Positions 9,975-30,222 of a stretch of DNA of 31,107 nt are shown in pieces. This DNA is from a virus. Position 1 is the first letter of the stretch; every line of letters begins with the position of its first letter. The translations under genes were made by a program, and so were the position numbers. The stretch lies in the IMG/VR virus record IMGVR_UViG_3300018080_000437, positions 1 through 31,107 of that record; one strand, 5' to 3'. Below the pieces are notes generated by a model. The model saw only the letters and a list, made by a program, of their open reading frames with translations, ran no database searches and was not told where the DNA came from.

Positions 9975-9983
9975 GAGCGGACA

Positions 9984-11489: not shown

Positions 11490-11499
11490 GGGAGGACAT

Positions 11500-17330: not shown

Positions 17331-17370
17331 GTAGAGTAGAATGAGAACAAAAACCGAAAGGAGCACAGGG

Positions 17371-17598
17371 ATGAAAAAGGGAACCAAGGTACAGGTTAAC
17401 AGGAAGCACCACGGCCTGGTCGGCAGCATCGGCCGGATCACCGGCAAGACCCACAAATACGGCGGACATACCTACCTGGCGGTGCGGTTTACGGGCGGCC
17501 GGGGCCGGGGAGAAACCCACTTCATGAGCGCCGGGGAGCTGAACATTATCCGGAAAAAAACCGACCTGCGGAGCACCAGCCGCTGGGACTACGTATAA
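17371..17598 (+). CDS. Small beta-barrel (KOW/SH3-like) early protein
   Basis: I start at ATG 17371, 7 bases after AAAGGAG; the in-frame ATG at 17341 lies close to the P2 start site and has no SD. The 75-residue product is basic with strand-rich KGTKVQVNRKHHGLVGSIGR, then HTYLAVRFTGGRGRGETHFM, resembling small SH3-like barrels such as KOW domains in transcription or nucleic-acid-binding proteins. It is first in the early operon, a place for regulators and host-takeover proteins. The fold is a guess from the pattern of Val/Gly strands; no function is shown. Confidence 0.7.
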   Translation: MKKGTKVQVNRKHHGLVGSIGRITGKTHKYGGHTYLAVRFTGGRGRGETHFMSAGELNIIRKKTDLRSTSRWDYV

Positions 17599-17615
17599 AC
17601 CGAAAAGAGCCAAAA

Positions 17616-17924
17616 ATGACAGGATACGATCCGGCAGCAGAGGGAGAAAGGGCAGCACGGCAGGACCGGGCCAGGACCCGGGCCAGGGACGCGCTCAAGG
17701 CCACGGTGGCCCGGAAAGCAACCAGGTACGCCAAGGACCCCCTGGCCGCCCTGGAGGCCCGGAGAGCGGAGATCACCAGCAAGACCCTGGCGGAGATCAC
17801 GGAAAAGGAATACACGGACCTGCTGGCCATTATCAAGGCAGAGGCCCGGATACGGCGGGACAGCGGGATGCCGGAGCCGGACAGCGGATACCCCTACAAA
17901 AACCGAAAGGGAGGTAAGGAATGA
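17616..17924 (+). CDS. Highly charged unknown early protein, 102 residues
   Basis: The leader ACCGAAAAGAG precedes ATG by 6 bases. The product is very rich in Arg, Ala, Lys and Glu (RAARQDRARTRARDALKATV, then EARRAEITSKTLAEITEKEY) and is likely almost entirely helical up to residue 80. The last 20 residues, with Pro/Gly/Tyr, appear disordered. The stop overlaps the next start (ATGA at 17921-17924). I do not recognise it; helical charged early proteins may bind nucleic acid or host polymerase but nothing here proves that. Confidence 0.65.
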   Translation: MTGYDPAAEGERAARQDRARTRARDALKATVARKATRYAKDPLAALEARRAEITSKTLAEITEKEYTDLLAIIKAEARIRRDSGMPEPDSGYPYKNRKGGKE

Positions 17925-18262
17925 GCACCATAGAAAAAATTCAATACCGGGGTTTTGAGATCGAGATCGACGCGCACAGTACCCGGTTCGGGACCCTTTA
18001 CGAACCCAGCAATAACTACGGGGAGCCGGTCATCACCCGGACGGCCTACCAGGACAAGGCCGTCGCGATCAAACAGGGCAAAAAGGACCTGGACCAGCTG
18101 ATAGACCAGGAGGCCGCGGCCCAGCCCAGGAGCACCTGGTGCGATTGCAAGGAGGACCAGCTGCCGAATTCGGATTTTTACCAGGACGGGGAATGCCCCT
18201 GCGGAATTCACCACCACCACTACCACTGCCGGGAATGCGGCGGCGTAACGCAGACCGGATAA
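17921..18262 (+). CDS. Early protein with cysteine/histidine-rich zinc-binding tail
   Basis: The ATG overlaps the upstream TGA and is preceded by ACCGAAAGGGAGG. The N-terminal 65 residues are mixed alpha/beta (YRGFEIEIDAHSTRFG, AYQDKAVAIKQGKKDLDQLI). The tail has Cys74, Cys76, Cys92, Cys94, His97-100, His102, Cys103 and Cys106, enough for one or two zinc sites (CDC, CPCGIHHHHYHCRECG). Similar short N-terminal domains occur in other phage early proteins, but I cannot name a family. Nucleic-acid binding is possible; the sequence shows only likely metal binding. Confidence 0.7.
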   Translation: MSTIEKIQYRGFEIEIDAHSTRFGTLYEPSNNYGEPVITRTAYQDKAVAIKQGKKDLDQLIDQEAAAQPRSTWCDCKEDQLPNSDFYQDGECPCGIHHHHYHCRECGGVTQTG

Positions 18263-18281
18263 CCGAAAGGGAGGACAGGAC

Positions 18282-18641
18282 ATGGACGCAATAGAAAAAA
18301 ACAGGCTGGACCGCCTGCAGGCCCTGGCCCGGGCAACCGGGACAGCCAAGCAGCTGGTCACGGCCCTGGAGGAGCGGATGGCCCAAGAAACCGGCAAGGA
18401 CGGGATCTCCCGGATGCCGGCCCGGATCAGCCTGCCGGACATCCAGGACGTAACCGAAAAGGCCCGGCTGGCCCTGGACCGGATCAACCGCGGCAGCCGG
18501 CCGGTCGGGATGATCTGGCGGGAGCCGGAGGGGACCCGGACCAAATACAAGGTCCAGTTCCCGCGCGGGATCATGACCTACTGCCGCAAAAAGGATGCGG
18601 AGGCGGTAGCCGGCGCCCTGGCCGGATTGGCCCAGGGATAG
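18282..18641 (+). CDS. Unknown early protein, 119 residues
   Basis: ATG follows ACCGAAAGGGAGG by 7 bases. The first 45 residues are probably helical (KNRLDRLQALARATGTAKQL) and the C-terminal half (GMIWREPEGTRTKYKVQFPR, GIMTYCRKKDAEAVAGALAG) could form a small beta-alpha unit. No catalytic motif, signal or membrane segment is visible. It stands third in the run of genes sharing the same leader motif, followed by a 70-base gap with a perfect GC hairpin. I do not recognise the family. Confidence 0.65.
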   Translation: MDAIEKNRLDRLQALARATGTAKQLVTALEERMAQETGKDGISRMPARISLPDIQDVTEKARLALDRINRGSRPVGMIWREPEGTRTKYKVQFPRGIMTYCRKKDAEAVAGALAGLAQG

Positions 18642-18663
18642 ACCGATAAACCACCGTTTACCA

Positions 18664-18698
18664 CGCCCCGGGGAGGCCAGCCAGGCAGCCCCGGGGCG
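18664..18698 (+). other. Perfect GC-rich hairpin in a 70-base intergenic gap
   Basis: The 10-bp stem cgccccgggg (18664-18673) pairs with 18689-18698 around a 15-base loop. It shares its core with the late terminator stem at 16870 but has no following T-run, so it is not an ordinary terminator. It ends 2 bases before the GGGAG site of the next gene. Confidence 0.75.
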
Positions 18699-18711
18699 CC
18701 GGGAGCTGGCC

Positions 18712-19002
18712 GTGGACCTTTACATCGATTATAAAAAGGAAAAGGAAATCGAGGCTGCCATAGCGGCCGAACAAAACCCGGTCCAGAGCTGGAGGATCGT
18801 GGACCGGATCGAGGGACCCTTCGAAACGCGGCAGGCCCGGACCGCCGCGGAGGCCCTGGACCCCTGGATGCAGGACGGGGACCGGGTCGAAACCACCAGG
18901 ACAACCAGCGGGATCATGATCCACGAGATCATCGGCCCGGACGGCGGAGCGCTGGACTTTTACGCCGTTAAAATCGAGGCCGCGATTACCAACGGCCGAT
19001 AG
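18712..19002 (+). CDS. Unknown early protein, 96 residues, GTG start
   Basis: GTG at 18712 is preceded by GGGAG 6 bases upstream, just past a strong hairpin. The product opens with a charged helix (YIDYKKEKEIEAAIAAEQNP) and continues with a probable beta region (SWRIVDRIEGPFETRQARTA, VETTRTTSGIMIHEIIGP). There is no recognisable motif. The gene ends 8 bases before the Spo11-like gene, so the two are probably co-expressed. The hairpin could tune translation of this gene. Its role is unknown. Confidence 0.6.
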   Translation: MDLYIDYKKEKEIEAAIAAEQNPVQSWRIVDRIEGPFETRQARTAAEALDPWMQDGDRVETTRTTSGIMIHEIIGPDGGALDFYAVKIEAAITNGR

Positions 19003-19010
19003 GAGGAGCG

Positions 19011-19916
19011 ATGCCCAAGATTTGTTATATTGAAAAGAATTTTAACCAGCGGTCCCTGGAGCTGATCGACACGGCCAACGGGATCATAGAGGAGTACGAG
19101 GCGGAGGGATACGATTTGACCCTGCGGCAGCTGTACTACCAGTTCGTGGCCCGGGACATTATCCCGAACAAGGACACGGAATACAAGCGCCTGGGTTCGA
19201 TCATCAGCGACGCCCGGCTGGCCGGCCTGGTGGATTGGACGGCCATAACGGACCGGACCAGGTACGTCCGGACCTGCAGCCATTGGGACACGCCGGCGGA
19301 GATCATCGAATCGGCGGCCAGCAGTTACGCGATCGATAAATGGGACGGGCAGCAGGAGCGGTGCGAGGTTTGGATAGAAAAGGACGCGCTCATCGGCGTG
19401 ATTGAGCGGACCTGCCAGCGCCTGGACGTCCCCTGCTTTTCGTGCCGCGGTTACGTTTCACAGAGCGAAATGTGGGTGGCCGCGATGCGGCTCAAGCGGT
19501 GGACCAAGCGCGGCGTGGGAGTTACCATTTTTCACCTCGGGGACCACGATCCCAGCGGGATCGACATGACCCGGGACATCCAGGACCGGGTGCAGCTGCT
19601 GGCCGGGACCACGGATATCCGGATCGAGCGGATCGCGCTGAACATGGACCAAATAGAGGAGTACGGACCGCCGCCGAACCCGGCCAAGGTCACGGACAGC
19701 CGGGCCGGTACCTACATCGCGGAGCACGGCAACGAATCATGGGAGCTGGACAGCCTGGACCCGAAAGTTCTGGACAGCACGGTGGAGGAGGCGGTAGGCA
19801 CGGTAATGAACAAGGCCCTGTGGAAAGGGCGCCAGGAAACCCAGGAGGCCGGCCGGGAGATGCTGACCCGGGCCAGCCGGGCCTGGGCGGACGTGGTCGA
19901 CTTTTTAAACCAATAA
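19011..19916 (+). CDS. Standalone Spo11 / topoisomerase VI subunit A-like TOPRIM protein
   Basis: This 301-residue protein joins two features of type IIB topoisomerase A subunits. Near the N-terminus, TLRQLYYQFV (Thr37 to Val46) resembles the T-x-R-x-x-Y-Y motif around the catalytic tyrosine of topoisomerase VI A and Spo11 (Tyr42 or Tyr43 here). Further on, VWIEKDAL (Glu123) and HLGDHDPSGIDM (Asp178, Asp180) fit the TOPRIM acidic metal-binding residues. The DARLAGLVDWTAITDRTR block lies between. It is shorter than usual TopoVI A (about 360-390) and no GHKL-ATPase B subunit is encoded in the window. SD GGAGGAG precedes ATG. It may cleave DNA for recombination or replication, or act as a primase-like TOPRIM enzyme. 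Assignment rests on motifs. Confidence 0.75.
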   Translation: MPKICYIEKNFNQRSLELIDTANGIIEEYEAEGYDLTLRQLYYQFVARDIIPNKDTEYKRLGSIISDARLAGLVDWTAITDRTRYVRTCSHWDTPAEIIESAASSYAIDKWDGQQERCEVWIEKDALIGVIERTCQRLDVPCFSCRGYVSQSEMWVAAMRLKRWTKRGVGVTIFHLGDHDPSGIDMTRDIQDRVQLLAGTTDIRIERIALNMDQIEEYGPPPNPAKVTDSRAGTYIAEHGNESWELDSLDPKVLDSTVEEAVGTVMNKALWKGRQETQEAGREMLTRASRAWADVVDFLNQ

Positions 19917-19932
19917 CCGAAAGGGAAAGGAG

Positions 19933-20577
19933 ATGGTAGACATGCAGATCAAAACCGTCACGGACCGCAAGCGCGGCTGCGGCTGGCGTAAAGAGGGCGG
20001 CCTGTATTTGATGGGCGGCGGAGAATTCGCGCCCTGCGGCAAGCTGCCGGTACCGCTGGACGTTTGCCCCTGCTGCGGCGCCGGCGTCAAGCCGGCCCGG
20101 GGATGGACCTGGGTGAACGCGGACGCGCTGACCAAGGACGCGCCCTGCAGCATGGCCGGGACCCTGGAGCACGGATACCAGCACGAGATCTGCCCCCTGG
20201 ACGGCCGGATCGGACGCGCCGGCCTGCTGTGGATCGGGGAGGCATATTACAAGACCCCGGAGGACTGGCTCCGGGAATCCCGGGACCAGGGGATCAGCCG
20301 CCGGATCAAGGCGGTACCCCGCGGCTTTGAGGTCGGGGAAACCTGGGTCCTGCTGGCACACCGCAAGGCGGTGCCGGCGCCGGCCCCGGACCAGGAGCCG
20401 GGACCCGGGATATTCCAGGCATTCCAGCCAACGGAAATCCAGTACGTGGTCACCGGCAAGGAAACGGACAAGGAGCTGGAGGACATGTGGGACCGGGGCG
20501 TGACCCCGATCCGGATCGAGCGGGATGAGGCCCAGGTAGACATGGGCCTGGGAGGCGCCAGCGATGACGCCGAATAA
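19933..20577 (+). CDS. Conserved phage zinc-ribbon-like protein, 214 residues
   Basis: The protein has paired cysteines: Cys16 in GCGWRK, Cys35 in PCGKL, Cys45/47/48 in VCPCCGAGVKPARGWTW, then Cys72 and Cys87 (EICPLDG). This is followed by LLWIGEAYYKTPEDWLRE and SRRIKAVPRGFEVGETWVLL. I recognise this layout as a recurring unnamed phage family, with metal binding likely. The C-terminal 65 residues are acidic and Pro-rich. Start is uncertain: ATG 19933 has GGAG directly abutting it but AAGGG at better spacing; ATG 19942 has GGAG 9 bases away. It follows the Spo11-like gene in one operon, so a role in DNA metabolism is possible. Confidence 0.75.
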   Translation: MVDMQIKTVTDRKRGCGWRKEGGLYLMGGGEFAPCGKLPVPLDVCPCCGAGVKPARGWTWVNADALTKDAPCSMAGTLEHGYQHEICPLDGRIGRAGLLWIGEAYYKTPEDWLRESRDQGISRRIKAVPRGFEVGETWVLLAHRKAVPAPAPDQEPGPGIFQAFQPTEIQYVVTGKETDKELEDMWDRGVTPIRIERDEAQVDMGLGGASDDAE

Positions 20578-20875
20578 CGGATCGATAAAGGCGGAGGCCC
20601 GGCGTCAATGGCGCCGGGCCGTCCGGGAGGACGCGAACATAAACGGCTGGCCGATTATGCCAACGGCCATGATGGATGAATGGACGCGGATCTACCAGGC
20701 GGAGGGCAAGGAGGCAGCATACCAGGACATAAAACAATTTAACAAGCGGGACGTGGTGGCCATTTACCTCGGACTTTTAGTTTTTATGGAATTTGGGATC
20801 GAGGTATACAACGCCGGCCGGCCGATCCCGGAGGAGGCAATCGATGGCCAAGAAAAAACTGAAAGCGGCAGGTAA
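20564..20875 (+). CDS. Unknown early protein, 103 residues
   Basis: The start overlaps the preceding gene by 14 bases, with GGGAGG about 10 bases upstream. The first half is charged and helical (KAEARRQWRRAVREDANING). Residues about 67-83 (VVAIYLGLLVFMEFGIEVY) are hydrophobic and could be a buried amphipathic helix or a weak membrane segment. The C-terminus overlaps the next gene by 32 bases. No family is recognised and no function is inferred. Confidence 0.6.
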   Translation: MTPNNGSIKAEARRQWRRAVREDANINGWPIMPTAMMDEWTRIYQAEGKEAAYQDIKQFNKRDVVAIYLGLLVFMEFGIEVYNAGRPIPEEAIDGQEKTESGR

Positions 20876-21098
20876 GCGGCCCCGGGGCGGCAAGATGACC
20901 TACCAGGCCCGGGTGGAGGACAAGGACGTGCCGTGCGAGATCTGCAGCAAAAGACCGGAGCGGATAAAAGGGACCGGAATATGCTGGATTTGCCACGGAG
21001 AAATCCTTAGATTAAAAGCCATAGCTAACACGCCCCGGGGACGGGCGGAAATTAACGCGATACTGGAGGAGATCGATGCAGCAGGAAAAACCGAATAA
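20844..21098 (+). CDS. Small zinc-finger protein, 84 residues
   Basis: I start at ATG 20844 because GGAGGAGG lies 6-7 bases upstream; the frame is open earlier (to 20793) without an SD. The basic N-terminus (MAKKKLKAAGKRPRGGK) precedes a four-cysteine motif, Cys31-x2-Cys34-x12-Cys47-x2-Cys50, that would hold one zinc ion. A helical tail follows. Such small basic zinc proteins can bind DNA or RNA. It overlaps both neighbours by 23-32 bases, showing tight translational packing. Confidence 0.7.
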   Translation: MAKKKLKAAGKRPRGGKMTYQARVEDKDVPCEICSKRPERIKGTGICWICHGEILRLKAIANTPRGRAEINAILEEIDAAGKTE

Positions 21099-21507
21099 GA
21101 CCCAGCAGCTGGTGGCCGCGGCCGTGACCCAGGTCCTGGCCGGCGGGAAAAAGCAGATCGTGGCAAACAAGCTGTACCGGATCACCGCGGAAACCGCGGC
21201 GGCCCGGAAAAAGGACATACCGCCCTGGGCCGTTTTTATCCAGGCGGTCCGGGACCTGGGATATCCGATCAGCAAGGCGGAGGTGATCGAGTTCAAGGCC
21301 AAGAAAAAGGTAACATTCCAGGAGCAGGCATACCACCGGGTGGACCGGAGCCTGGACAATTGCATCAGCGAAATCGTGATGGCCGCGGCAAAATTAAAGA
21401 CCAAGGCCAAGGCCAAGGGATATCCGCAAGAGATGCGGAGCGCCCTGGCCGATGCCCGGGGCCAGCTGGTGGCGGCCGCAAACAAGATAAATGAGGCGGC
21501 CCGGTAA
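21076..21507 (+). CDS. Unknown early protein, 143 residues, mostly helical
   Basis: The ATG overlaps the zinc-finger gene by 23 bases, with GGAGGAG upstream. The sequence is Lys/Ala-rich and helical (TQQLVAAAVTQVLAGGKKQI, VDRSLDNCISEIVMAAAKLK), with a central YPISKAEVIEFKAKKKVT. The pattern AVRDLGYPISKAEVIEF hints at a helix-turn-helix-like segment near 58-74, but that is weak. It is the last gene before promoter P3. I do not recognise a family. Confidence 0.65.
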   Translation: MQQEKPNKTQQLVAAAVTQVLAGGKKQIVANKLYRITAETAAARKKDIPPWAVFIQAVRDLGYPISKAEVIEFKAKKKVTFQEQAYHRVDRSLDNCISEIVMAAAKLKTKAKAKGYPQEMRSALADARGQLVAAANKINEAAR

Positions 21508-21514
21508 AAATAGC

Positions 21515-21543
21515 TTGACTTCCGGTTAAAATATTTTTACATT
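21515..21543 (+). promoter_or_regulatory. Sigma70-type promoter P3 with possible operator
   Basis: TTGACT at 21515-21520, a 17-base spacer, and TACATT at 21538-21543. An inverted pair TCCGGT (21521-21526) and ACCGGA (21544-21549) brackets the spacer and -10, as an operator would. It lies in the gap after 21507 and would drive the small membrane protein and annealing genes. Confidence 0.75.
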
Positions 21544-21568
21544 ACCGGAAAAACCGAAAGGAGGCGGA

Positions 21569-21712
21569 GTGCGGCAGCACCAGCAGCAGGACAAGCTAAT
21601 CGGGATCGCGATCTGCATCGCGGTCGTTATCCTTGGATTAACATTAATATGCCGGGATTTTTACCCCGGCAAAACCGAAAGGGAGGACAGCTATGGTCAA
21701 CGAGCGGACTAA
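21569..21712 (+). CDS. Small single-pass membrane protein, 47 residues, GTG start
   Basis: GTG at 21569 follows ACCGAAAGGAGG at good spacing. The 47-residue frame ends TAA at 21710-21712, overlapping the start of the next gene by 20 bases. After a polar start (RQHQQQDK) comes a hydrophobic helix (LIGIAICIAVVILGLTLIC, residues 10-28), then a short charged tail. It is first after promoter P3. Small membrane proteins in phage early blocks can be superinfection exclusion or inhibitor peptides; that is only a possibility here. Confidence 0.6.
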   Translation: MRQHQQQDKLIGIAICIAVVILGLTLICRDFYPGKTEREDSYGQRAD

Positions 21713-22802
21713 AGAGATGGGCGGGGACCAGGCCCCGGGGACCGGGGCAACGGAGGTGATAGACGACGTGGAGGTACGGACCAACCAGGTACCGGCAACC
21801 GCCGGAGATTTACCAGCGGACGCGATGTCACCGCAGCAGCGGCTCCTCATGGATAAGATCAGCCCGGTGGAGCTGGACAAGCGCGTGGCGGAGGCGGAGG
21901 CGTTTATCGGCTACATGAACAAAATCCGCAAGCTGGCAATCCGGGCCACGGCCCCGCAGGATTGGGTCATAATGGATGACCGGCCCTGGCTGCAGGAAAC
22001 CGGCGTAAAAAAAGTAAACCAGGTCCTGGGCATCCGCGTGTACGACGTAACCCTCACCGCGGAAAAGCATACCGATGACAACGGGCGCCTGGATTTGTAC
22101 TTCACGGCAACCGGAAAAGGGGAGCTGCTGGGCCGGCAGGCAATGAACGTCGGGATGAGCAGCACCCGCGATCCGTTCTTTGCCCGGCGGAAAAAGCGGG
22201 ACAGCCAGAACAAGGTAATATGGGACAACGAAAACAACCGGCCCGTAACCTACCTTTTAAATCTGGATGAGATCGATATACCCAGCGTCCGGAAAAAGGC
22301 CGTGACCAACCTGCAGGCCCGGCTGCAGCGGGACCTTTGCCCGATCAACCCTACGGCGGCGGAGCTTAAAGAGGCATTCGGAGATCGCGCCGATCAGATC
22401 GAGGGGTTCAAGTTCAATACCGGCGGCAAGGGCGGCGGCCAGAAAAAGCGGGACAGCAAGGATGACAGCGGGACCCGGGACCAGCTGAAAGCGAACGTCC
22501 GGGATCTGGCCGATCTGACCAACGCAACGATACCGGATATCCTGGTACCGATTACCCGGCAGTTTTCCAAGTTTGACAATTTCAAAGGCTGGGGCGATCC
22601 GGATCAGATACAGCCGTTCATGCTGGACCGCGTGGCCAAGGAGGTCGCGGCCCGGCTTAAAAAGCTGCAGGACGCCGGAGGACCCGGGGCCGGGCAGCCG
22701 GCCGGACAGCCTGCAGCGGAGGAGCCGGCAGCCGGACCGGACGCCGGACCGCCGGTCGATCACCCGGCCAGCATGGTGCAGCCGGAGGACCTGCCGGAAT
22801 AA
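21693..22802 (+). CDS. Candidate single-strand annealing (recombinase) protein
   Basis: This 369-residue protein is preceded by ACCGAAAGGGAGG. Its core (about 78-215) reads LAIRATAPQDWVIMDDRPWL, then QETGVKKVNQVLGIRVYDV, a beta-rich segment, GMSSTRDPFFA, and IPSVRKKAVTNLQARLQRDL. I recall this pattern in phage proteins encoded beside PD-(D/E)XK exonucleases and thought to act as Rad52/RecT-like annealases. The C-terminal 60 residues are Pro/Ala/Gly/Asp-rich and acidic, ending DLPE, like the acidic tails of many ssDNA-binding proteins. The gene is followed by the Cas4-like nuclease, supporting a recombination pair. Function is inferred from context and family memory; no catalytic motif exists in such proteins. 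Confidence 0.6.
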   Translation: MVNERTKEMGGDQAPGTGATEVIDDVEVRTNQVPATAGDLPADAMSPQQRLLMDKISPVELDKRVAEAEAFIGYMNKIRKLAIRATAPQDWVIMDDRPWLQETGVKKVNQVLGIRVYDVTLTAEKHTDDNGRLDLYFTATGKGELLGRQAMNVGMSSTRDPFFARRKKRDSQNKVIWDNENNRPVTYLLNLDEIDIPSVRKKAVTNLQARLQRDLCPINPTAAELKEAFGDRADQIEGFKFNTGGKGGGQKKRDSKDDSGTRDQLKANVRDLADLTNATIPDILVPITRQFSKFDNFKGWGDPDQIQPFMLDRVAKEVAARLKKLQDAGGPGAGQPAGQPAAEEPAAGPDAGPPVDHPASMVQPEDLPE

Positions 22803-22807
22803 TTTTA

Positions 22808-22836
22808 TTGACAATTCCGGCCGCGATCGTTAATAT
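22808..22836 (+). promoter_or_regulatory. Sigma70-type promoter P4
   Basis: TTGACA at 22808-22813, a 17-base spacer beginning ATTCCGG, and TAATAT at 22831-22836. Both boxes are close to consensus. It lies in the 78-base gap before the nuclease gene. Confidence 0.9.
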
Positions 22837-22880
22837 GTTTTTATCCCGAATCAATACCTTTTAACCGAAAGGGGACAACC

Positions 22881-24026
22881 ATGATAGAGATGGACACCAG
22901 CCAGGAGGGCCAGGGCGGCTCCCAGCCGCAACCACCGGCCGAACCGATCAAAAAAGAGGACATCAAGGTCACCAGGCAGCCGGCCGATCCGGACGCCAGC
23001 GAACGGCCTGCGATCCCGGACATAGAGGAGGCGCTCCGGGGCAAGCTGATAGCGGACGCCGAAAAGGACAAGGGCCGGCCGCAATACGTAAACCGGGCCA
23101 GCAGCATCGGGGACATTTGCGAACGGTCCCTGGTGTACGCCCGGACCCATTACGATCAGAAACCCGCCGCGGAGCTGGGCCTGCAACGGGCATTCCATGA
23201 GGGCCGCCTACACGAACGGGCATTTAAAAAGGACCTGCTGGACGCCGGCGTCGATTTCGTGGAGCCGGAGATGGGGTTCATGGATCAGCAGACCAAGACC
23301 AGCGGACATATGGACATGGCCATACCGGACGGCAGCACCCGGTGGCCCCTGGAGTTCAAGAGCTGCGCGTCGTCCACGTTTAACGCCCTGGCAAAATACG
23401 GCCGGTGGGATTTCATGAAAGCGATCCCGGAGCTGGTCAAGCGCGGAAAGTACTGGCTTTCAAAATACCCGGGCCAGGTCCAGATGTACGGATTTTTTAA
23501 AGCGGAGCAATGGGCAATCGTTATTTTTAAGAACAAGGACAACGGGGCCTATAAACAATTTAACGTCCGCCTGGACCTTTTATACGTGGACCAGCTGCTG
23601 GAAAAGAGCAAGCGCGTGAACGCGGTCGTGGACCAGGCCCTGGAGGACAAGGGCGCCGGCCAGGAGCTGGACGCCAAGTACTGCGACGCGCACTACCCAG
23701 AGCGGATCAAGGAGCGGTCCCTTTATTGCAAAGGCTGCTGGTTCAACCACCTGTGCCTGCCGGACATCGACTTTAATGCCCCGCTGAAAATCGAGCAGGA
23801 CCCGGAATTTGAGGAGAAACTGGCACGGTGGCATTCGCTGAAAAAGGCGGCGGCGGAATACGATAAATTGAACAAGGAGCTGACCGGGCAATGCCAGGGC
23901 CGGGAGAACGTAATGGTCGGGCGGTTCCACGTCACCGGCAAGAAAAATGTAAAAGGGACCTGGCTCAAAAAGATCGAAACGATCGATGAGGAGGAGGACC
24001 AGGCCCAGGAAGTTAAAACCAGTTAA
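22881..24026 (+). CDS. Cas4/RecB-like PD-(D/E)XK nuclease with Fe-S cluster residues
   Basis: This 381-residue protein carries the motifs of the RecB/Cas4 nuclease family. SSIGDICERSLVY (Cys80) is the N-terminal motif, GRLHERAF (His111) motif I, SGHMDMAI (Asp145) and LEFKSC (Glu158, Lys160) the PD-(D/E)XK centre, and YPGQVQMYGF (Gln199, Tyr203) the downstream motif. Cys283, Cys286 and Cys292 (CxxC-x5-C) pair with Cys80 as an AddB/Cas4-type 4Fe-4S site. It would digest DNA ends to make single strands, working with the annealing protein upstream. The N-terminal 65 residues are acidic and probably flexible. It has its own promoter P4 and ACCGAAAGGGG site. Confidence 0.85.
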   Translation: MIEMDTSQEGQGGSQPQPPAEPIKKEDIKVTRQPADPDASERPAIPDIEEALRGKLIADAEKDKGRPQYVNRASSIGDICERSLVYARTHYDQKPAAELGLQRAFHEGRLHERAFKKDLLDAGVDFVEPEMGFMDQQTKTSGHMDMAIPDGSTRWPLEFKSCASSTFNALAKYGRWDFMKAIPELVKRGKYWLSKYPGQVQMYGFFKAEQWAIVIFKNKDNGAYKQFNVRLDLLYVDQLLEKSKRVNAVVDQALEDKGAGQELDAKYCDAHYPERIKERSLYCKGCWFNHLCLPDIDFNAPLKIEQDPEFEEKLARWHSLKKAAAEYDKLNKELTGQCQGRENVMVGRFHVTGKKNVKGTWLKKIETIDEEEDQAQEVKTS

Positions 24027-24050
24027 CCAGGACCGAAAGGAGGAGATCGC

Positions 24051-24302
24051 ATGGCCAGGAACATCAACGTAAAGACCACCGCCGGGACAATAACGATCCC
24101 CGGGATGCCGGAGATCGGCCGCCGGCTCGAGGGGTTCCGGGCCGTGACCGGTAAAAATAAAAAGGAATTCGCGGAGTTCATCGGGACCACGGCCGCAAAT
24201 TACCAGCACCTTACAAACGGAAAAAGCTACCCCCGCTTTGAGGTTCTGGCTATTTTAAAATATCACGGATACGATATATCCGGAATATTAACCCCTAAAT
24301 AA
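24051..24302 (+). CDS. Small helix-turn-helix (XRE/Cro-like) regulator
   Basis: The 83-residue protein contains a helix-turn-helix pattern at about 36-70: NKKEFAEFIGTTAANYQHLT, then NGKSYPRFEVLAILKYH, close to Cro/CI-type XRE domains, where the second helix (AANYQHL) would contact DNA. The N-terminal 20 residues (TTAGTITIPGMPEI) form a probable strand pair. SD GGAGGAG (after ACCGAAAGG) precedes ATG. It may repress the early promoters; no cognate operators are proven. The neighbouring stop overlaps the SD of the next gene. Confidence 0.8.
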   Translation: MARNINVKTTAGTITIPGMPEIGRRLEGFRAVTGKNKKEFAEFIGTTAANYQHLTNGKSYPRFEVLAILKYHGYDISGILTPK

Positions 24303-24313
24303 TGGAGGAGCGC

Positions 24314-24733
24314 ATGGCGCTAAAGAAACCCACGATGGTCCCCTACCTTTTTGAATTGCGGGAGGACCAGGAGCTGCTGGCCAACCAGGTAAATATCCAG
24401 GTCAAGGCCCCGGGCGGCGGGACCACGGTCGACGTACCGGTGGCGGTCCGCAAGCTGGACCCCGGCAGCAAGGAGGCCAAGGGAGCCAAGAGCCAGGAGA
24501 TGGCCGCGGACATCAAGGCAGCCCAGGAGCGGATGCTGGAAATGGATGAGGAGATCAAGGCCAAGGATGAGGAGATCACCGGCCTGCGGGAGGCCCTGGA
24601 CACGGCCAACCAGGGCGCGGAGGAGGCCAGCAAAAAGATCGAGGCGGCAGAATCGGCCAAGGCGGATCTGCAGACCAAGGTCGAGCAGCTGGAAAAGGAC
24701 CTGGCCGCCGCCAAAAAGAAAAAGAAAAAGTAA
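24314..24733 (+). CDS. Coiled-coil protein, about 139 residues
   Basis: I choose ATG 24314, 5 bases after GGAGG; an in-frame ATG at 24302 would place that SD inside the gene. The N-terminal 50 residues have beta-like character (VPYLFELREDQELLANQVNI, GGGTTVDVPVAVRKLDP). The rest (about 58-139) is a long heptad-like charged helix (MAADIKAAQERMLEMDEEIK, LQTKVEQLEKDLAAAKKKKK) ending in a poly-lysine tail. It probably oligomerises. The function is unknown; poly-Lys ends can bind nucleic acid. Confidence 0.7.
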   Translation: MALKKPTMVPYLFELREDQELLANQVNIQVKAPGGGTTVDVPVAVRKLDPGSKEAKGAKSQEMAADIKAAQERMLEMDEEIKAKDEEITGLREALDTANQGAEEASKKIEAAESAKADLQTKVEQLEKDLAAAKKKKKK

Positions 24734-24763
24734 GCGGCATGACCTGCCGGACAGAAAATCGAG

Positions 24764-24793
24764 GGGCGGCCTGGTTCACAGATCGGGCCGCCC
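24764..24793 (+). other. GC-rich hairpin in the gap 24734-24814
   Basis: gggcggcc (24764-24771) pairs with ggccgccc (24786-24793), a perfect 8-bp stem around a 14-base loop, with no T-run after it. The rest of the 81-base gap shows nothing else apart from the SD AGGAGG for the next gene. Confidence 0.65.
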
Positions 24794-24814
24794 TGCCTTA
24801 TAACAGGAGGTACC

Positions 24815-25261
24815 ATGGATTTATTCTCCCCGGAATATGCGAACGCGGTCAGCGAGATCGCGATCAAAAAGAAAATCCTGGCGGACCATAACCGCAAGTA
24901 CGCGACCCTGCTGGAGCGGCAACGGGCCACGGCCAGACACCACCTATACAGCCAGACCTACCTAAACAAATACCGGATGCCCTGGGCCATTACCATGGAT
25001 GACGTCCGGATCATTTGCGAAATCGACAGCGTCCCCGGGAAAACCACGAACAACAAGTACGGCGCTTTTTTTGCCGGCAGCCCGGACTTTGCCTGGACCG
25101 GGGACATGCACGTCAGCACGGCCCCGGGAGGCCACGGCAACCTTATAAAAATATGGACCTTATCACCGGCCAAGTTCCTGGCAAAGTTCGGCCGGATACC
25201 AGGCGGCGCCGTATTCGCGCCCGGGGTCCTGGAGGCATTCAATAATCGGAGGGCATCATGA
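24815..25261 (+). CDS. Unknown early protein, 148 residues
   Basis: ATG follows AGGAGGTACC, an ideal SD. The product has a helical N-terminus (NAVSEIAIKKKILADHNRKY), a middle with TMDDVRIICEIDSVPGKTTN and PDFAWTGDMHVSTAPGGHGN, and a C-terminal SPAKFLAKFGRIPGG. The central part looks alpha/beta. I see no known active site; the DMHVS and GGHG His/Gly segments are not a recognised motif. Its stop overlaps the next start (ATGA). No family is recognised. Confidence 0.65.
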   Translation: MDLFSPEYANAVSEIAIKKKILADHNRKYATLLERQRATARHHLYSQTYLNKYRMPWAITMDDVRIICEIDSVPGKTTNNKYGAFFAGSPDFAWTGDMHVSTAPGGHGNLIKIWTLSPAKFLAKFGRIPGGAVFAPGVLEAFNNRRAS

Positions 25262-25479
25262 GCGGAGAATTTACGGACGTACAGCGGGGAGCGCTCCTGG
25301 CAATGAAAAAGTGGTGCCAGGATTATATCCAGCACGTGGACCGGTGGATAGAAACCGGAGATGAGGACGCGGTCCACGAACACCTGGATCGCCTGGACAA
25401 AATCGCGGAGGAGTACCCGCCGGCCGGTACCGGGACCCAGCCCGGCAGCGGGGCCAGCGTGAAACGCAAACAGCTATAA
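25258..25479 (+). CDS. Unknown early protein, 73 residues
   Basis: The start shares ATGA with the preceding stop, with CGGAGGG upstream. The first 50 residues are amphipathic helix (DVQRGALLAMKKWCQDYIQH, EDAVHEHLDRLDKIAEEYPP) and the last 20 are Gly/Ser-rich and basic. There is no membrane segment or metal motif. Translation is probably coupled to the upstream gene. The function is unknown. Confidence 0.6.
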   Translation: MSGEFTDVQRGALLAMKKWCQDYIQHVDRWIETGDEDAVHEHLDRLDKIAEEYPPAGTGTQPGSGASVKRKQL

Positions 25480-25491
25480 CCGGAGGCGGAA

Positions 25492-25821
25492 ATGAAAATC
25501 GTAGGATGGGTGGTTATTAATCCCAAGGGCCTGCCAATATTGACGTTTACGGGCAAGACCCGGCGGGACGCGATCGGCCGCTGTTCCCATTTTGACCCGG
25601 ACCGGGGATGGCGGTGTAAGCGGTTCACAATGAACATACGCGGAAACCGGACGGACCCGGGCGCGGAAAAAAAGGCCAGCGGATATATTGTCCTTTTTAC
25701 CAGCGGCCCGGATAAAAGGGAGGGCCAGCATGCAGGAGATCGTGGAGGCCATGGAAACCATAATCGAGGCCCTGGGCGCCGCGATAGGGACCGCGGAGCG
25801 CATGCAGAGCGGCCTACATGA
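25492..25821 (+). CDS. Unknown early protein with long 3' overlap, 109 residues
   Basis: ATG follows CCGGAGGCGG. The first 75 residues look like a real small alpha/beta domain (KIVGWVVINPKGLPILTF, RRDAIGRCSHFDPDRGWRCK, ASGYIVLFTSG). The last 30 residues, rich in Arg, Gly and His, are read from the out-of-frame start of the next gene and have the composition of a shadow reading. The 92-base overlap is the longest in the window. The gene may end normally there, or a frameshift may be present. The function is unknown. Confidence 0.55.
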   Translation: MKIVGWVVINPKGLPILTFTGKTRRDAIGRCSHFDPDRGWRCKRFTMNIRGNRTDPGAEKKASGYIVLFTSGPDKREGQHAGDRGGHGNHNRGPGRRDRDRGAHAERPT

Positions 25822-25954
25822 CGTTAACGCGATCCTGGCCGGCTACCGGTTCGCGGTGGGCCTAAATATTGGACAGGCGGCCGTGATAGGGGTCCTGGTG
25901 GCCATTCTGATAAGGATCACCATTAAAAACCGGAGGCAGAAAAATGGGAGATAA
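25730..25954 (+). CDS. Small membrane protein, 74 residues
   Basis: ATG at 25730 lies 5 bases after GGGAGGG; the frame is open further upstream without an SD. The N-terminal 45 residues form an amphipathic helix (QEIVEAMETIIEALGAAIGT), followed by a membrane-like helix at about 48-64 (IGQAAVIGVLVAILIRI) and a basic tail NRRQKNGR. The positive tail suggests the C-terminus stays in the cytoplasm. The role is unknown. It overlaps the upstream gene by 92 bases and the downstream gene by 11. Confidence 0.65.
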   Translation: MQEIVEAMETIIEALGAAIGTAERMQSGLHDVNAILAGYRFAVGLNIGQAAVIGVLVAILIRITIKNRRQKNGR

Positions 25955-26219
25955 ACAGACCAGGCGGATCGAGCTGGGGACCTTTGTGGAAACGCCCCGG
26001 GTTCCCGGGACAATAACGGAGCGCAACAACCAGGGACAGGTCATGGAGATCACCCCGGACCGGAAATATTGCAAGGTTCGAATTCGAGTTAAGGGATTGA
26101 AAAGACAGGACGTACCGTTCCCGGTCAGCCAGGTAAAGCGGGTCCCGTTCCCGGACCGGAGCACGAAAAGAAAGCCGCGGGAATGGGACTACGGCAAGGA
26201 AAAACCGACCGGAGAATAA
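25944..26219 (+). CDS. Small basic SH3-like protein beside the origin, 91 residues
   Basis: ATG follows CGGAGGCAGAAAA. The product is basic with short strand-like segments (RRIELGTFVETPRVPGTITE, QVMEITPDRKYCKVRIRV, KGLKRQDVPFPVSQVKRVPF), consistent with a small SH3-like barrel. Its stop TAA (26217-26219) directly abuts the first DnaA box. Binding near the origin is possible but only suggested by position. Confidence 0.65.
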   Translation: MGDKQTRRIELGTFVETPRVPGTITERNNQGQVMEITPDRKYCKVRIRVKGLKRQDVPFPVSQVKRVPFPDRSTKRKPREWDYGKEKPTGE

Positions 26220-26453
26220 TGTGGATAACCAGGCGGACAAGATGTGGACAATTAAAGTTTTACGTGAACCGGCCGTCAATTTGTGGAAAAGATCGCGGTT
26301 ATCCCAAAGTTATACACACAGATATCAACACCCTAACCCTTTTAAAATATTGACTTTCCAGAGAAAACGGCCAGTTATCCACAGCATTATTATTGTTGTT
26401 ATATTTATATTTAATAAAAACAATAATATAAAAGCCGGTGGAAATGTGGATAA
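26220..26453. other. Probable DnaA-dependent replication origin
   Basis: In this 254-base gene-free interval I see four perfect TTATNCACA DnaA boxes: TGTGGATAA at 26220 (minus strand box), TTATACACA at 26310, TTATCCACA at 26375 and TGTGGATAA at 26445. One-mismatch boxes lie at 26243 (TGTGGACAA) and 26282 (TGTGGAAAA), and a poorer one at 26299. Between the last two perfect boxes is a 45-base AT-rich stretch (26386-26434) with inverted arms TATTATTGTT (26388) and AACAATAATA (26419), suited to unwinding. A TTGACT at 26350 could be a weak promoter. The layout matches bacterial and phage origins; activity is inferred. Confidence 0.85.
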
Positions 26454-26473
26454 CCCAGGACCCGGGAGGGGAA

Positions 26474-27799
26474 ATGCCTAAAAAACAAGCGGATAAGAAA
26501 AAGGCCAAGGCCGGGAAAAAGGCGCCGGCAAAAACCGCGCTGCCGATCCGGTGGCATCATGAGGAGCGGCCGATCAAGGAGCTGCAGGGATACGACAGGA
26601 ACCCGCGAATCATTAAAAAGCGATCCCGGAAATTCCAGGACCTGGACAAGAGCATCGGGAAATTCGGCCTGGCGGAGCCGGTCACGATCCAGCCGAACGG
26701 TACCATAATAGGCGGACACGCCCGGGTCCAGGACTTCCAGAAACGCAAACAGAAAAAGATCGACTGCTGGGTACCGGAGCGGCCGCTGAACGCGGCGGAG
26801 CTAAAGGAATTAAATATCAGATTAAACAAAAACATAGCCGGGGAATGGGACCTGGATGAATTAAAAAAATTCGATTTAAACGACCTCATGGATTGGGGAT
26901 TTTTACCGGAGGACCTGGGCCTGGAAAAAGAGAAACCAGGCAAGACCGATGAGGACGCGGTGCCGCCGGTCCCGGGAAAAGCAAAATCTAAAAAGGGCCA
27001 GATATTCCAGCTGGGAGAGCACCGGCTCATGTGCGGGGACGCCACGAACATCGATGACGTGGAGGCGCTGATGGCCAAGGAGGCCGCGGACCTGGTATGG
27101 ACCGACCCGCCGTATAACGTAAATTACGAGAGCAAAAAGACCGGCAAGATTGCCAACGATAATATGACAGACAACGAATTTTATAGCTTTTTACACGATG
27201 CCCTCAATTGCCTGCTGCAGGTAACCCGGGCCGGCGGCGCGATCTACATATGCCACGCGGACAGCAACGGCCTAACATTCCGAAAGGCAATGATCGACGC
27301 CGGCTGGATGATGAAACAGGCCATTATATGGGTAAAGGACGTGGCGGTCCTGGGCCGGCAGGATTACAACTGGCAGCACGAACCGATCCTGTACGGATGG
27401 AAAGAGGGCGCCGCGCATTACTTCGCGGCCGATTTTACACAGAAAACCGTCAAGGAGGAGGAGGGGAAAAACCTGCAGGCCATGCCCAAGGACCAGCTGA
27501 TAAAAGAATACCAGGACCTGGTACGGCGGATCAAGACCACCGTGACCAAGCACAGCCGGCCCCGGGAATCAGATCTGCACCCTACCATGAAACCGGTAAA
27601 ATTGATAAAAGAATTTATCCGGAATAGCACCCGCAAGGGCGGGATCATCCTGGACACGTTCGGCGGCAGCGGCAGCACCATGATAGCCGCGGAGGAAACC
27701 TACCGCAAGGCCCGGGTCCTGGAGCTGGAGCCGCGGTATTGCGATGTGATCATCCGGCGCTGGGAGGAGTTCACAGGAGAAAAAGCGAAAAAGCTATGA
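26474..27799 (+). CDS. ParB-N domain fused to DNA adenine/cytosine-N4 methyltransferase
   Basis: I start at ATG 26474, 4 bases after GGAGG; the in-frame ATG at 26438 lies within the origin. The 441-residue product has a Lys-rich N-terminus, a ParB-N domain (about 20-130; PIKELQGYDRNPR, GGHARVQDFQKRK), then a beta-class methyltransferase. The catalytic DPPY is at about 211-214 (TDPPYNVNY), HPTMKPVKLI precedes the SAM-binding DTFGGSGSTMIAAE at about 394, and ELEPRYCDVIIRRWEE closes it. Motif order DPPY before FxGxG marks the beta class. It probably modifies N6-adenine or N4-cytosine in phage DNA. Target sequence cannot be read. The gene starts 20 bases past the last DnaA box. Confidence 0.9.
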   Translation: MPKKQADKKKAKAGKKAPAKTALPIRWHHEERPIKELQGYDRNPRIIKKRSRKFQDLDKSIGKFGLAEPVTIQPNGTIIGGHARVQDFQKRKQKKIDCWVPERPLNAAELKELNIRLNKNIAGEWDLDELKKFDLNDLMDWGFLPEDLGLEKEKPGKTDEDAVPPVPGKAKSKKGQIFQLGEHRLMCGDATNIDDVEALMAKEAADLVWTDPPYNVNYESKKTGKIANDNMTDNEFYSFLHDALNCLLQVTRAGGAIYICHADSNGLTFRKAMIDAGWMMKQAIIWVKDVAVLGRQDYNWQHEPILYGWKEGAAHYFAADFTQKTVKEEEGKNLQAMPKDQLIKEYQDLVRRIKTTVTKHSRPRESDLHPTMKPVKLIKEFIRNSTRKGGIILDTFGGSGSTMIAAEETYRKARVLELEPRYCDVIIRRWEEFTGEKAKKL

Positions 27800-28356
27800 A
27801 AAAACAGCAGCATAAGAAAAAACGGGCAGCCAAGAAAAAGGGCGCCGGCAAGACCAAGGCCCGGTCCCGGGACAAGGCCAAGGATAAGAAAAAGACCAGG
27901 ACCGCCGCGGACCGGAAAAACAAAAAGGAGCGGACCCCGGAGAACCCGAACGCCGCCGGACGGCCGGAGATAGAGGTCGACTGGACCGTGGTGGACAAGC
28001 TATGCGCGATACAATGCACCCTGGAGGAGATCGCCGGGTTTGCCGGGTGTTCAGAGGACACGATCGAGAGGGCCTGCGAACGGGTCCACGGCGTTAAATT
28101 TGCGGAGTACTATAATAATAAGAGCGCGGAGGGCAAAATTAGCCTGCGGCGCGAACAATTCCGGGTGGCCCAAAAAGGGAATACCAGGATGCTGACCTGG
28201 CTGGGCATCCAGGTCCTGGGCCAGAAACACCGGCACGATATCACCACCGGCAAGCGCCTGGATTACCGGGACGTAAAAAAGCGGCTGCAGGAGGTCAAGG
28301 ACCCGGCGGAGCGTTCGAAAATATTAATGGACTTCATAATGCAGGGCAACGAATAA
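27796..28356 (+). CDS. Terminase small subunit-like packaging protein
   Basis: ATG 27796 overlaps the methyltransferase TGA (ATGA). The 186-residue product has a 60-residue Lys/Arg-rich N-terminal tail, then a helix-turn-helix (LCAIQCTLEEIAGFAGCSED, then TIERACERVHG) and a packaging-type block SLRREQFRVAQKGNTRMLTW-LGIQVLGQK. The C-terminal part (RDVKKRLQEVKDPAERSKIL) is helical. This pattern is common in small terminase subunits that bind pac or cos DNA and form a ring. TerL begins only 2.1 kb later, separated by six small genes. The very basic tail is unusual and may bind DNA. Confidence 0.75.
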   Translation: MKKQQHKKKRAAKKKGAGKTKARSRDKAKDKKKTRTAADRKNKKERTPENPNAAGRPEIEVDWTVVDKLCAIQCTLEEIAGFAGCSEDTIERACERVHGVKFAEYYNNKSAEGKISLRREQFRVAQKGNTRMLTWLGIQVLGQKHRHDITTGKRLDYRDVKKRLQEVKDPAERSKILMDFIMQGNE

Positions 28357-28401
28357 CCAGGCCACCAGGGCCGTAACCTATTATTTTTATTGAACGGAAA
28401 A

Positions 28402-28578
28402 GTGGACTACCCGTACAAATACCGATGGGGCAACAACGCGAAACGCGCACAACTGAAAGGGCGGCGGTGCCGGATCGTGGCCCGGGGCCGAATGAACACG
28501 GTCCTGGTGGAATTTGAGAACGGGCAGACCGAAACCATCAGCCGCCGGGCATTAAAAAAGGAGGAGCCGTGCGGATAA
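28402..28578 (+). CDS. Small conserved phage protein (KYRWGNN family), about 58 residues
   Basis: The frame is open to TTG at 28390; I favour GTG 28402 (VDYPYKYRWGNN as first residues) because the preceding ACGGAAA is a weak SD and TTG has none. The basic product reads YRWGNNAKRAQLKGRRCRIV, then RMNTVLVEFENGQTETISRR, a small beta unit seen in many phages near terminase genes. It is likely nucleic-acid-binding by composition, but no activity is known to me. The end overlaps the next gene by 10 bases. Confidence 0.65.
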   Translation: MDYPYKYRWGNNAKRAQLKGRRCRIVARGRMNTVLVEFENGQTETISRRALKKEEPCG

Positions 28579-29027
28579 AAAAAGTAAAGATCACCACGGA
28601 TGACAAGGTTTATATCGAGTACGAAAAGGAGAGCGGGGAGCAATGGGATCTGTTCACGATCACCTGCGCCGGCAAGCCGCGGCCGGCATTTTTCAAGGCC
28701 ATGGACGCCCTAAAAAAACACGCCGGGGACCTGCTGGAGCTGGACCTGGCCCCGGGCAATTTGAAAGTTCGCGGCGTGACCTATTCCTATTCAGAGGAGC
28801 AAGGGATCATGGGCGCCGTGGTGAGCTACCGGTACAAGCTGGAAAAATCCGGGACCAGCATCGCCCTTAACACCCCGCATAAACCGGAAAAGCAATACCG
28901 GGAGGGCAAAAAGGAACCGAAACCCGCCAGCTTCCTGTCCAAGAAATGCGTGGAGGACCTGGTAAAATTAAAGGTCGAATGCCAGGAATATTTAAAAGGA
29001 GAGCGGGAGCAACAAACCCTTTTATAG
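28569..29027 (+). CDS. Unknown conserved phage protein, 152 residues, GTG start
   Basis: GTG at 28569 stands just after AAGGAGGAG. The product reads IKKVKITTDDKVYIEYEKES and WDLFTITCAGKPRPAFFKAM, a central YSYSEEQGIMGAVVSYRYKL, and a C-terminal segment CVEDLVKLKVECQEYLKGE. It appears alpha/beta and is a type I associate with phage packaging neighbourhoods, without known function. No catalytic motif is evident. It lies in the six-gene insert between the terminase subunits. Confidence 0.65.
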   Translation: MRIKKVKITTDDKVYIEYEKESGEQWDLFTITCAGKPRPAFFKAMDALKKHAGDLLELDLAPGNLKVRGVTYSYSEEQGIMGAVVSYRYKLEKSGTSIALNTPHKPEKQYREGKKEPKPASFLSKKCVEDLVKLKVECQEYLKGEREQQTLL

Positions 29028-29037
29028 CGGAGGACCG

Positions 29038-29439
29038 ATGACCGAAAGGACAAGGACAGCAGCCCTGGCGGCCCTGCAGGAGGCCCGGGAATTGATAAAG
29101 GGATGGCACAACATGGGGAAAACGGGCCTCAAGGACGTGGATAAAATGTGGGAGATATACGATCAGAATAGCCCGGAGATGAAACGGATCAACAGCGCGA
29201 TCCGGGATCTGCAGGAAACGACCGGGGACCCGGGCCTGGTATTGACAGACCGCAAGCCGGAGCGGGAGGGAATGTGGTGGTACCAAAACCCGAAAGGGCA
29301 GCGGACCGTGGTCCGGCTGGTCCGGAGGGCGGAGGAGCCGGGCCTATTTTTTATCGCGGATGACAACCACCTGTACCCAGCGGAGGGCGTCCTGGGGCAA
29401 TGGGCCGGGCCGATCCCGGAGCCGGAGGAGAAAAAATGA
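29038..29439 (+). CDS. Unknown phage protein, 133 residues
   Basis: ATG follows GCGGAGGACC. The N-terminal 65 residues are helical (RTAALAALQEARELIKGWHN, MKRINSAIRDLQETTG) and the C-terminal half is beta-rich with aromatic residues (EGMWWYQNPKGQRTVVRLVR, GLFFIADDNHLYPAEG). This two-part build is common in phage regulatory or accessory proteins. Its stop overlaps the next start (ATGA at 29436-29439). The function is unknown. Confidence 0.65.
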   Translation: MTERTRTAALAALQEARELIKGWHNMGKTGLKDVDKMWEIYDQNSPEMKRINSAIRDLQETTGDPGLVLTDRKPEREGMWWYQNPKGQRTVVRLVRRAEEPGLFFIADDNHLYPAEGVLGQWAGPIPEPEEKK

Positions 29440-29834
29440 TAGGGCCAACCACATTAAAAAACGAGGGCCAAGACCGGGACCGGGGCATGGAGGTGATCTA
29501 CGTATGCAGCCCCTACGCCGGAGATTACATAATGAACAAATTAAACGCCCGGCGTTATATAAAATTCGTAATGGACTGCGGACACGTACCGGTGGCGCCG
29601 CACATTTGGTTTGAAAAATTCCTAAACGATACGGTGGAGGCGGAGAGAGCGCACGGCCTGGCCATGGCGATCCGCCTGGTACCGCGCTGCGACCAGCTGT
29701 GGATTTTTGGAAATAAGATCACCGGCGGAATGAAAATGGAAATCGAGGTGGCCAAGATAACACCCCGGGTCCGCCGGATAATTAGGAATATAAAAATCGA
29801 GGGACCGAACCGGTGGGACGGGAAAACGTTATAA
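29436..29834 (+). CDS. Nucleoside 2-deoxyribosyltransferase-like protein (DUF4406/DUF7768 type)
   Basis: I start at ATG 29436, which overlaps the previous stop and follows GGAGGAG; an earlier ATG at 29400 has no SD. The 132-residue protein has the Rossmann-like pattern of this group: VIYVCSPYAGD near residue 20, YIKFVMDCGHVPVAPHIWFE, then CDQLWIFGNKITGGMKMEIEVA near the C-terminus. Related enzymes cleave or exchange nucleosides, and phage members may salvage nucleotides or degrade signalling molecules. The catalytic Asp/Glu cannot be firmly located. It lies in the terminase insert with an ASCH protein. Confidence 0.7.
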   Translation: MIGPTTLKNEGQDRDRGMEVIYVCSPYAGDYIMNKLNARRYIKFVMDCGHVPVAPHIWFEKFLNDTVEAERAHGLAMAIRLVPRCDQLWIFGNKITGGMKMEIEVAKITPRVRRIIRNIKIEGPNRWDGKTL

Positions 29835-30214
29835 AGGCCCTGTCGATCCAGCAGCCCTGGGCCTGGGCCATTGTTTACGCGTTCAAGGACGTGGAGAACC
29901 GGACCTGGCGGACCACCTACCGCGGGGAATTCTGGATACACGCCGGCCAAGGTTTTGATTGGGACGGCCTGCATTGGATGCAAGAGCACCAGGACCAGCT
30001 GCTGGTGGGACCCGGGACCACGGTCCGGATACCAACCAAGGCCCAGGAATATAAGCGCGGCGGGATCGTGGGCCGCGCCAGGATCACAGGATGCGTAAGC
30101 GAACACGGCAGCCCCTGGTTTGTGGGACCCTGGGGCCTGCTGCTCCGGGACGCCCTGCCGGTACCGTTCCTGCCGTGCAAGGGCCGCCTGGGATTTTTTG
30201 AACCGAAAACATAG
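29813..30214 (+). CDS. ASCH-domain (PUA-like) protein
   Basis: The 133-residue frame uses GTG at 29813, overlapping the previous gene by 22 bases; SD quality is low. The N-terminus reads VIKALSIQQPWAWAIVYAFK-DVENR, the ASCH signature (KALSxxQPWA...K..E.R), followed by YRGEFWIHAGQGF and GGIVGRARITGCV, strands of the PUA-like barrel. ASCH proteins bind RNA or modified nucleobases, and some are RNases or deaminate-type enzymes. The C-terminal PCKGRLGFFEP matches the family close. It may deal with phage or host nucleic acid; specificity is unknown. Confidence 0.85.
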   Translation: MGRENVIKALSIQQPWAWAIVYAFKDVENRTWRTTYRGEFWIHAGQGFDWDGLHWMQEHQDQLLVGPGTTVRIPTKAQEYKRGGIVGRARITGCVSEHGSPWFVGPWGLLLRDALPVPFLPCKGRLGFFEPKT

Positions 30215-30222
30215 GAGGACCG

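Follow-up and report, generated by a model that had tools for sequence, protein, structure and literature searches.

A Spo11-like Mini-A gene and a predicted annealase-exonuclease pair in the early region of a myovirus: a recurrent but not obligate neighbourhood

Can a phage carry, side by side, everything needed to cut, resect and anneal DNA as one programmed system? The question is raised by a linear viral record of 31,107 bases (IMG/VR IMGVR_UViG_3300018080_000437, the whole of which we call the window), in which a first-pass annotation had picked out a Spo11-like protein, a candidate single-strand annealing protein and a Cas4-like Fe-S exonuclease, all encoded in one direction within 5 kb, and had proposed that they act together. 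The three genes are indeed where they had been placed, all on the + strand and within 5 kb, and are listed here together with the small open reading frames that separate the first from the other two.

19011..19916, + strand: Mini-A protein, 301 residues (match to phrog_6247, homology to a phage NP1 protein, invariant residues and a Toprim structural alignment)
19933-20577, 20564-20875, 20805-21098 and 21076-21507, + strand: four small open reading frames between the Mini-A and annealase genes
21693..22802, + strand: predicted single-strand annealing protein of the Rad52 superfamily, 369 residues (core at residues ~58-215)
22881..24026, + strand: predicted Cas4-domain, RecB-type exonuclease, 381 residues (match to phrog_1990, conserved residues)

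The trio is real and recurrent, and it is neither unique nor obligate. We put at roughly two in three the probability that it consists of an ordinary annealase-exonuclease recombinase and of a Mini-A protein acting as a general DNA transesterase, which would not be an obligate partner of the other two.

The identity of the Spo11-like protein is borne out by several approaches. Its whole sequence matches phrog_6247, a family named 'DNA topoisomerase' (E 2e-111 in a PHROG profile search), and across 95% of its length it shares 45% identity with a homologue in Pseudomonas phage NP1, the protein that a review presents under the name Mini-A (PMC7614492, Fig. 4A). In reviews, Mini-A designates a viral homologue of Topo VI-A/Spo11 whose role is not established (PMC8185306, PMC11302465). 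Relatives, which in many phages are annotated as 'DNA topoisomerase', are encoded in 68 phage isolate records, in more than 580 IMG/VR stretches and in 218 stretches found among ~85,000 species genomes. Three of them (L238, L239 and L276) come from contigs that binning assigned to archaea (Methanosarcinales, Nanoarchaeota and Methanimicrococcus) and are 52-55% identical to the window protein, which is unexpectedly close for another domain of life; mis-binning is possible.

The N-terminal part of Mini-A is a winged-helix (5Y-CAP-like) domain with the motif LRQLYYQ, which includes Tyr43, and the Toprim domain that follows carries Glu123, Asp178 and Asp180. All four residues are unchanged in 182 of 182 distinct Mini-A sequences, an invariance slightly favoured by the search itself, since part of the Mini-A motifs served to fetch these sequences. 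Because Tyr43 never varies while the adjacent Tyr42 is Phe in eight of the 182, the alignment singles out Tyr43 as the probable catalytic residue, and relatives of the protein give a weak TP6A_N match across the tyrosine motif. In the AlphaFold model (pLDDT 88), Topo VI-A is the best structural match of the Toprim half (1d3y; VIA-align Z 10.8 with an rmsd of 3.1 across 138 residues, the alignment covering only residues ~115-264), followed by MksG (8b7f, Z 10.4), JetD (7til, Z 10.0) and further Topo VI-A entries, with Spo11 (8uru) at Z 8.7. The evidence for the fold rests on VIA-align, since Foldseek alone gave no significant match (E above 0.001). Profile searches of the sequences of solved structures, Spo11 chains included, returned nothing up to E 10, and a search with Pfam PF20768 across the window gave no match. 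Mini-A thus resembles Topo VI-A and Spo11 in its Toprim fold, in its Glu and Asp-x-Asp metal residues and in a tyrosine, probably catalytic, located in the winged-helix part, and differs from them in its length of 301 residues, in the lack of a B subunit found nearby and in the lack of a sequence match to solved chains.

The partner expected of a Topo VI-type enzyme was looked for in 51 Mini-A records (some of them fragments), and no GHKL ATPase B subunit (HATPase_c_3 type, PF13589) was found, while the same profile scored in all 14 control genomes. With no GHKL ATPase candidate in these records, Mini-A does not qualify there as part of a complete type IIB topoisomerase (Topo VI or VIII). We infer from its conserved residues that Mini-A is an active DNA transesterase, which can make tyrosine-linked breaks and needs no ATPase partner to do so.

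The second protein, encoded at 21693-22802, has no Pfam or PHROG match, and its family yields only one weak, unnamed PHROG and Pfam hits at chance level. By sequence it falls in none of the RecT, Erf, Rad52/22, Sak3, Sak4 or Gp2.5 families, and a comparison between a profile of the new family and Erf was not significant. A structural model, built from an alignment with seven IMG/VR relatives (pLDDT 68 overall, mostly 75-90 in the core), led elsewhere. Human RAD52 is its top Protein Data Bank match in Foldseek (probability 1.00, E 3e-3) and also comes top in VIA-align (Z 8.7), where yeast Rad52, Mgm101 and the phage 80alpha Sak protein are listed as well, and the model also matches viral proteins that bear the names RecT, Rad52 and ERF, at E-values from 9e-7 to 8e-4. 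Since this Z score is modest and the E-values against solved structures are weak, a Rad52-type annealing fold is well supported by the model rather than certain, which upholds the proposal of a candidate annealase. The protein is thus like members of the Rad52/22-Erf-Sak3 superfamily in its predicted core fold and in being paired with an exonuclease gene, and unlike them in matching none of their Pfam or PHROG families. This family, nameless in Pfam and PHROG alike, modestly extends the known range of phage annealases. Gp12 of Hydrogenobaculum phage 1 (L033:4795-5427), annotated as hypothetical, is another member, encoded upstream of a Cas4-domain exonuclease gene.

For the third protein, the proposed identity of a Cas4-like Fe-S exonuclease holds. 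It matches phrog_1990, 'Cas4-domain exonuclease', at E 9e-23, and in an alignment with three relatives it retains both the cluster cysteines (Cys80, Cys283, Cys286 and Cys292) and the residues of the RecB nuclease motifs (G108, E112, D145, K160, Q199 and Y203); a solved Cas4 structure (4r5q) is weakly matched (E 0.04). Most relatives of the annealase that were examined adjoin or neighbour Cas4-like or PD-(D/E)XK-like genes. In a Manatee Spring podovirus, in Hydrogenobaculum phage 1 and on several IMG/VR contigs, the annealase relative has a Cas4-like nuclease as a direct or close neighbour, and no Mini-A gene is present in the stretches of these genomes that were examined. Because the pair occurs without Mini-A, it is an ordinary two-gene recombination module in its own right, and the two proteins are likely, judging from homology, to form a two-component phage recombinase.

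How often, then, does Mini-A keep such company? The neighbourhoods of Mini-A are so varied that BLAST clustering of neighbouring proteins found almost no shared families, and profile searches were therefore used. The closest known counterpart is phage NP1, whose public annotation shows a row made of Mini-A (gp49), a Sak4 annealase (gp48), an SSB-like protein, a Cas4 exonuclease (gp45) and a helicase. As in the window, Mini-A, annealase and Cas4-domain exonuclease follow each other in that order on one strand, in less than 4 kb; unlike in the window, the annealase is Sak4, a RecA-like ATPase, rather than a Rad52-like protein, and the trio genes are interrupted or followed by SSB-like and DksA-like genes and a helicase. 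Similarly, in Listeria phage LWP01 and in Paenibacillus prophages, Mini-A is followed on the same strand and within 5 kb by an exonuclease (phrog_69) and an annealing protein (Gp2.5-like), with the difference that the exonuclease precedes the annealase and that neither has more than a very distant relationship, if any, to its counterpart in the window. In Hyphomicrobiales prophages (Ensifer, Neorhizobium, Brucella and Mesorhizobium), the three functions are again adjacent on one strand, with Mini-A coming last, after a RecE-like exonuclease and a RecT-type annealase. Other close combinations include (i) Mini-A with Erf and an exonuclease in IMG/VR record L073, (ii) Mini-A with an exonuclease-Sak4 fusion in L010, (iii) an exonuclease gene that overlaps Mini-A at its start in L062, (iv) an Erf gene ending just before Mini-A in L041 and (v) a Cas4 exonuclease gene 25 bp upstream of Mini-A in Microbacterium phage Fizzles, with a recombinase and a single-stranded DNA-binding protein nearby. 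At least five unrelated annealase families take part in these combinations. The fusion in L010, an open reading frame of 539 residues (9901-11517) downstream of Mini-A, seemingly joins a PD-(D/E)XK exonuclease to a Sak4-like annealase. No exonuclease or annealase is annotated close to Mini-A in phages JWF, Commonplace, Delta, Pam3 and Clavibacter phage 33.

The first-pass annotation knew of no described phage system with this trio. That is only half right. We found no paper that presents Mini-A/annealase/exonuclease combinations as a system, but the public annotation of NP1 contains the trio and several other combinations exist; the idea that no phage has it is contradicted by NP1.

Co-occurrence was counted in 48 IMG/VR Mini-A records that had not been picked for the trio (some being fragments, and all being among those most similar to the window Mini-A), using a limited set of annealase and nuclease families. 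An annealase was detected in 21, an exonuclease in 17 and both in 12, compared with 11, 4 and 4, respectively, in 20 terminase-centred control records, on which phrog_1990 was not run. None of these differences is significant (12/48 vs 4/20 for both partners, P 0.76), and both partners lie within 5 kb of Mini-A in only 4 of the 48. A separate local survey by iterative profile searches, which started from a small number of seeds and sets a minimum only, found both within 5 kb of Mini-A in at least 7 of 80 genome loci. The annotation had suggested just such a survey, and had reasoned that the proposal would fail if the Spo11-like gene were commonly found without the other two. That is largely the case, since about three quarters of the Mini-A records have no detectable exonuclease plus annealase. 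A dedicated, obligate three-part system, as originally put forward, is therefore rejected, co-occurrence being at the level of the controls.

Mini-A could play several other roles. It might be a stand-alone topology enzyme or decatenase, perhaps working with a host ATPase partner, its position next to the recombinase genes reflecting only the clustering of early genes. This would fit its homology to the A subunit of Topo VI, the 'DNA topoisomerase' label that it bears in many phages and the general DNA-metabolism genes that surround it (ThyX, ligase, primase and polymerase). Type IIB strand passage needs the ATPase B subunit, as in Topo VI, however, and none was found in the 51 records, which leaves such a role unlikely. 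We regard as improbable a third role, that of a nuclease directed against host or competitor DNA (in superinfection exclusion or host DNA breakdown), akin to the JetD/MksG branch. JetD and MksG do rank among the best structural matches of Mini-A, and MksG is a Toprim nuclease of plasmid defence (PMC10123090), but these proteins lack a tyrosine at the 5Y-CAP position (PMC10123090), whereas Tyr43 is kept in 182 of 182 Mini-A sequences, and Mini-A was accordingly not assigned to them. Moreover, SMC-like JetABC partners were not noticed near Mini-A, although no systematic search for them was made.

The rival that bears most directly on the trio is the programmed route itself, in which Mini-A would make Spo11-like double-strand breaks that the Cas4-like protein would resect and the Rad52-like protein anneal, leading to recombination-dependent replication or genome mosaicism. 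The invariant catalytic residues of Mini-A favour it, and so does the lack of a B subunit, which is to be expected of a break maker rather than of a strand-passing enzyme. Three further observations favour a closer link than that between an ordinary recombinase and a general transesterase, the first and the last also counting for the programmed route: (i) compact trios are found again and again, with annealases of the RecT, Erf, Sak4, Gp2.5-like and Rad52-like kinds, Mini-A being repeatedly adjacent to at least five unrelated families, (ii) the order of the module is stable within phage clades of Hyphomicrobiales and Bacillota and (iii) of the 21 records with an annealase, 10 have it no further than 5 kb from Mini-A, where 4.5 would be expected under uniform placement (P 0.006, one hit, in G003, being weak). 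Taken together, the closeness of annealases and the repeated placement of Mini-A next to unrelated annealases in different phage lineages hint at a functional link but do not prove one. On the other side, most Mini-A records have no such partners and joint occurrence equals that of the controls, exonucleases are within 5 kb of Mini-A at chance level (4/17, 3.4 expected), and the annealases differ from DNA polymerase A (2/14 within 5 kb, 2.8 expected) only at P 0.07. In addition, the route would require the covalently bound protein to be removed before the 5' ends could be resected, perhaps by host SbcCD, and no phage gene for removing covalent protein from ends was seen. On balance, we consider it unlikely that breaks made by Mini-A enter the recombination module in this virus, and we are equally doubtful of the programmed route as a whole. 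A broader version, to which we give still less credence, is that in some phages programmed, tyrosine-linked double-strand breaks made by Mini-A feed a replaceable exonuclease-annealase module, which would have been assembled several times with unrelated annealases and would amount to a viral equivalent of the way in which meiotic recombination begins. The weak proximity signal nevertheless keeps the idea of a functional link alive. If Mini-A breaks did feed phage recombination, they would provide a simple bacterial model of how Topo VI-A-type enzymes became break makers like Spo11, and the compact natural modules of NP1, LWP01, the Hyphomicrobiales prophages and this window are suited to a direct test.

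Under the favoured explanation, an ordinary recombinase accompanied by a general transesterase, the Cas4-like nuclease would expose single strands, which the Rad52-type protein would anneal during concatemer formation, repair or recombination-dependent replication. Mini-A would be an active, dimeric DNA transesterase that cuts through Tyr43 and the Toprim metal site, stays bound to the 5' ends and acts without an ATPase B subunit, serving phage DNA replication or recombination in general. What the analysis shows is who the genes are, their conserved active-site residues, predicted folds and co-localisation, and the lack of a detectable B-subunit homologue; the enzymatic activities are all inferred, as would be any processing of Mini-A breaks by the other two proteins.

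The three genes had also been said to share a leader motif, and this is true of two of them. The motif CCGAAAGG occurs 13 times in the window (2.2 expected), 12 of the 13 copies being on the + strand and all 12 within 17354-30275. Where checked around the trio, the motif stands ~10-15 bases ahead of the start codon, including in front of the annealase and Cas4-like genes:

21675..21682, + strand: leader motif CCGAAAGG ahead of the annealase gene
22865..22872, + strand: leader motif CCGAAAGG ahead of the Cas4-like gene

The leader of Mini-A is a one-base variant, CCGATAGG. Being region-wide, the motif does not tie the trio together, and the suggestion that it marks the three genes as a unit was dropped, also because it differs at Mini-A; it is a feature of the early genes of this phage as a whole, and may be a translational or regulatory element. 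Its layout is CC-GAAA-GG, which could fold into a tiny GNRA-type hairpin. Since promoter-like matches are found at 21515-21543, ahead of the annealase gene, and at 22808-22836, ahead of the Cas4-like gene, a single transcript for the trio is not established, and Mini-A may be on a separate transcript from the other two.

The wider setting is that of a myovirus. The window, which is probably a fragment, carries tail genes in its left part and early-type genes in its right part, where the trio sits as part of the early (DNA-metabolism) region. The four small open reading frames between Mini-A and the annealase gene (19933..21507) gave no Pfam or PHROG family above the cut-off. Other landmarks are as follows.

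162-1610: tail sheath
2675-4744: tape measure
9984-11255: baseplate wedge
26438-27799: ParB-like/DNA-methyltransferase protein, matching both ParB-like partition and DNA methyltransferase families
29400-29834: nucleoside 2-deoxyribosyltransferase

Two kinds of neighbour recur around Mini-A elsewhere. A ThyX-type thymidylate synthase gene adjoins or neighbours it in NP1, Salmonella phage SPN19 and Brevundimonas phage Delta (L032, L198 and L204), and ParB-like and methyltransferase proteins, of which the window has one at 26438-27799, are among its commonest neighbours in other phages.

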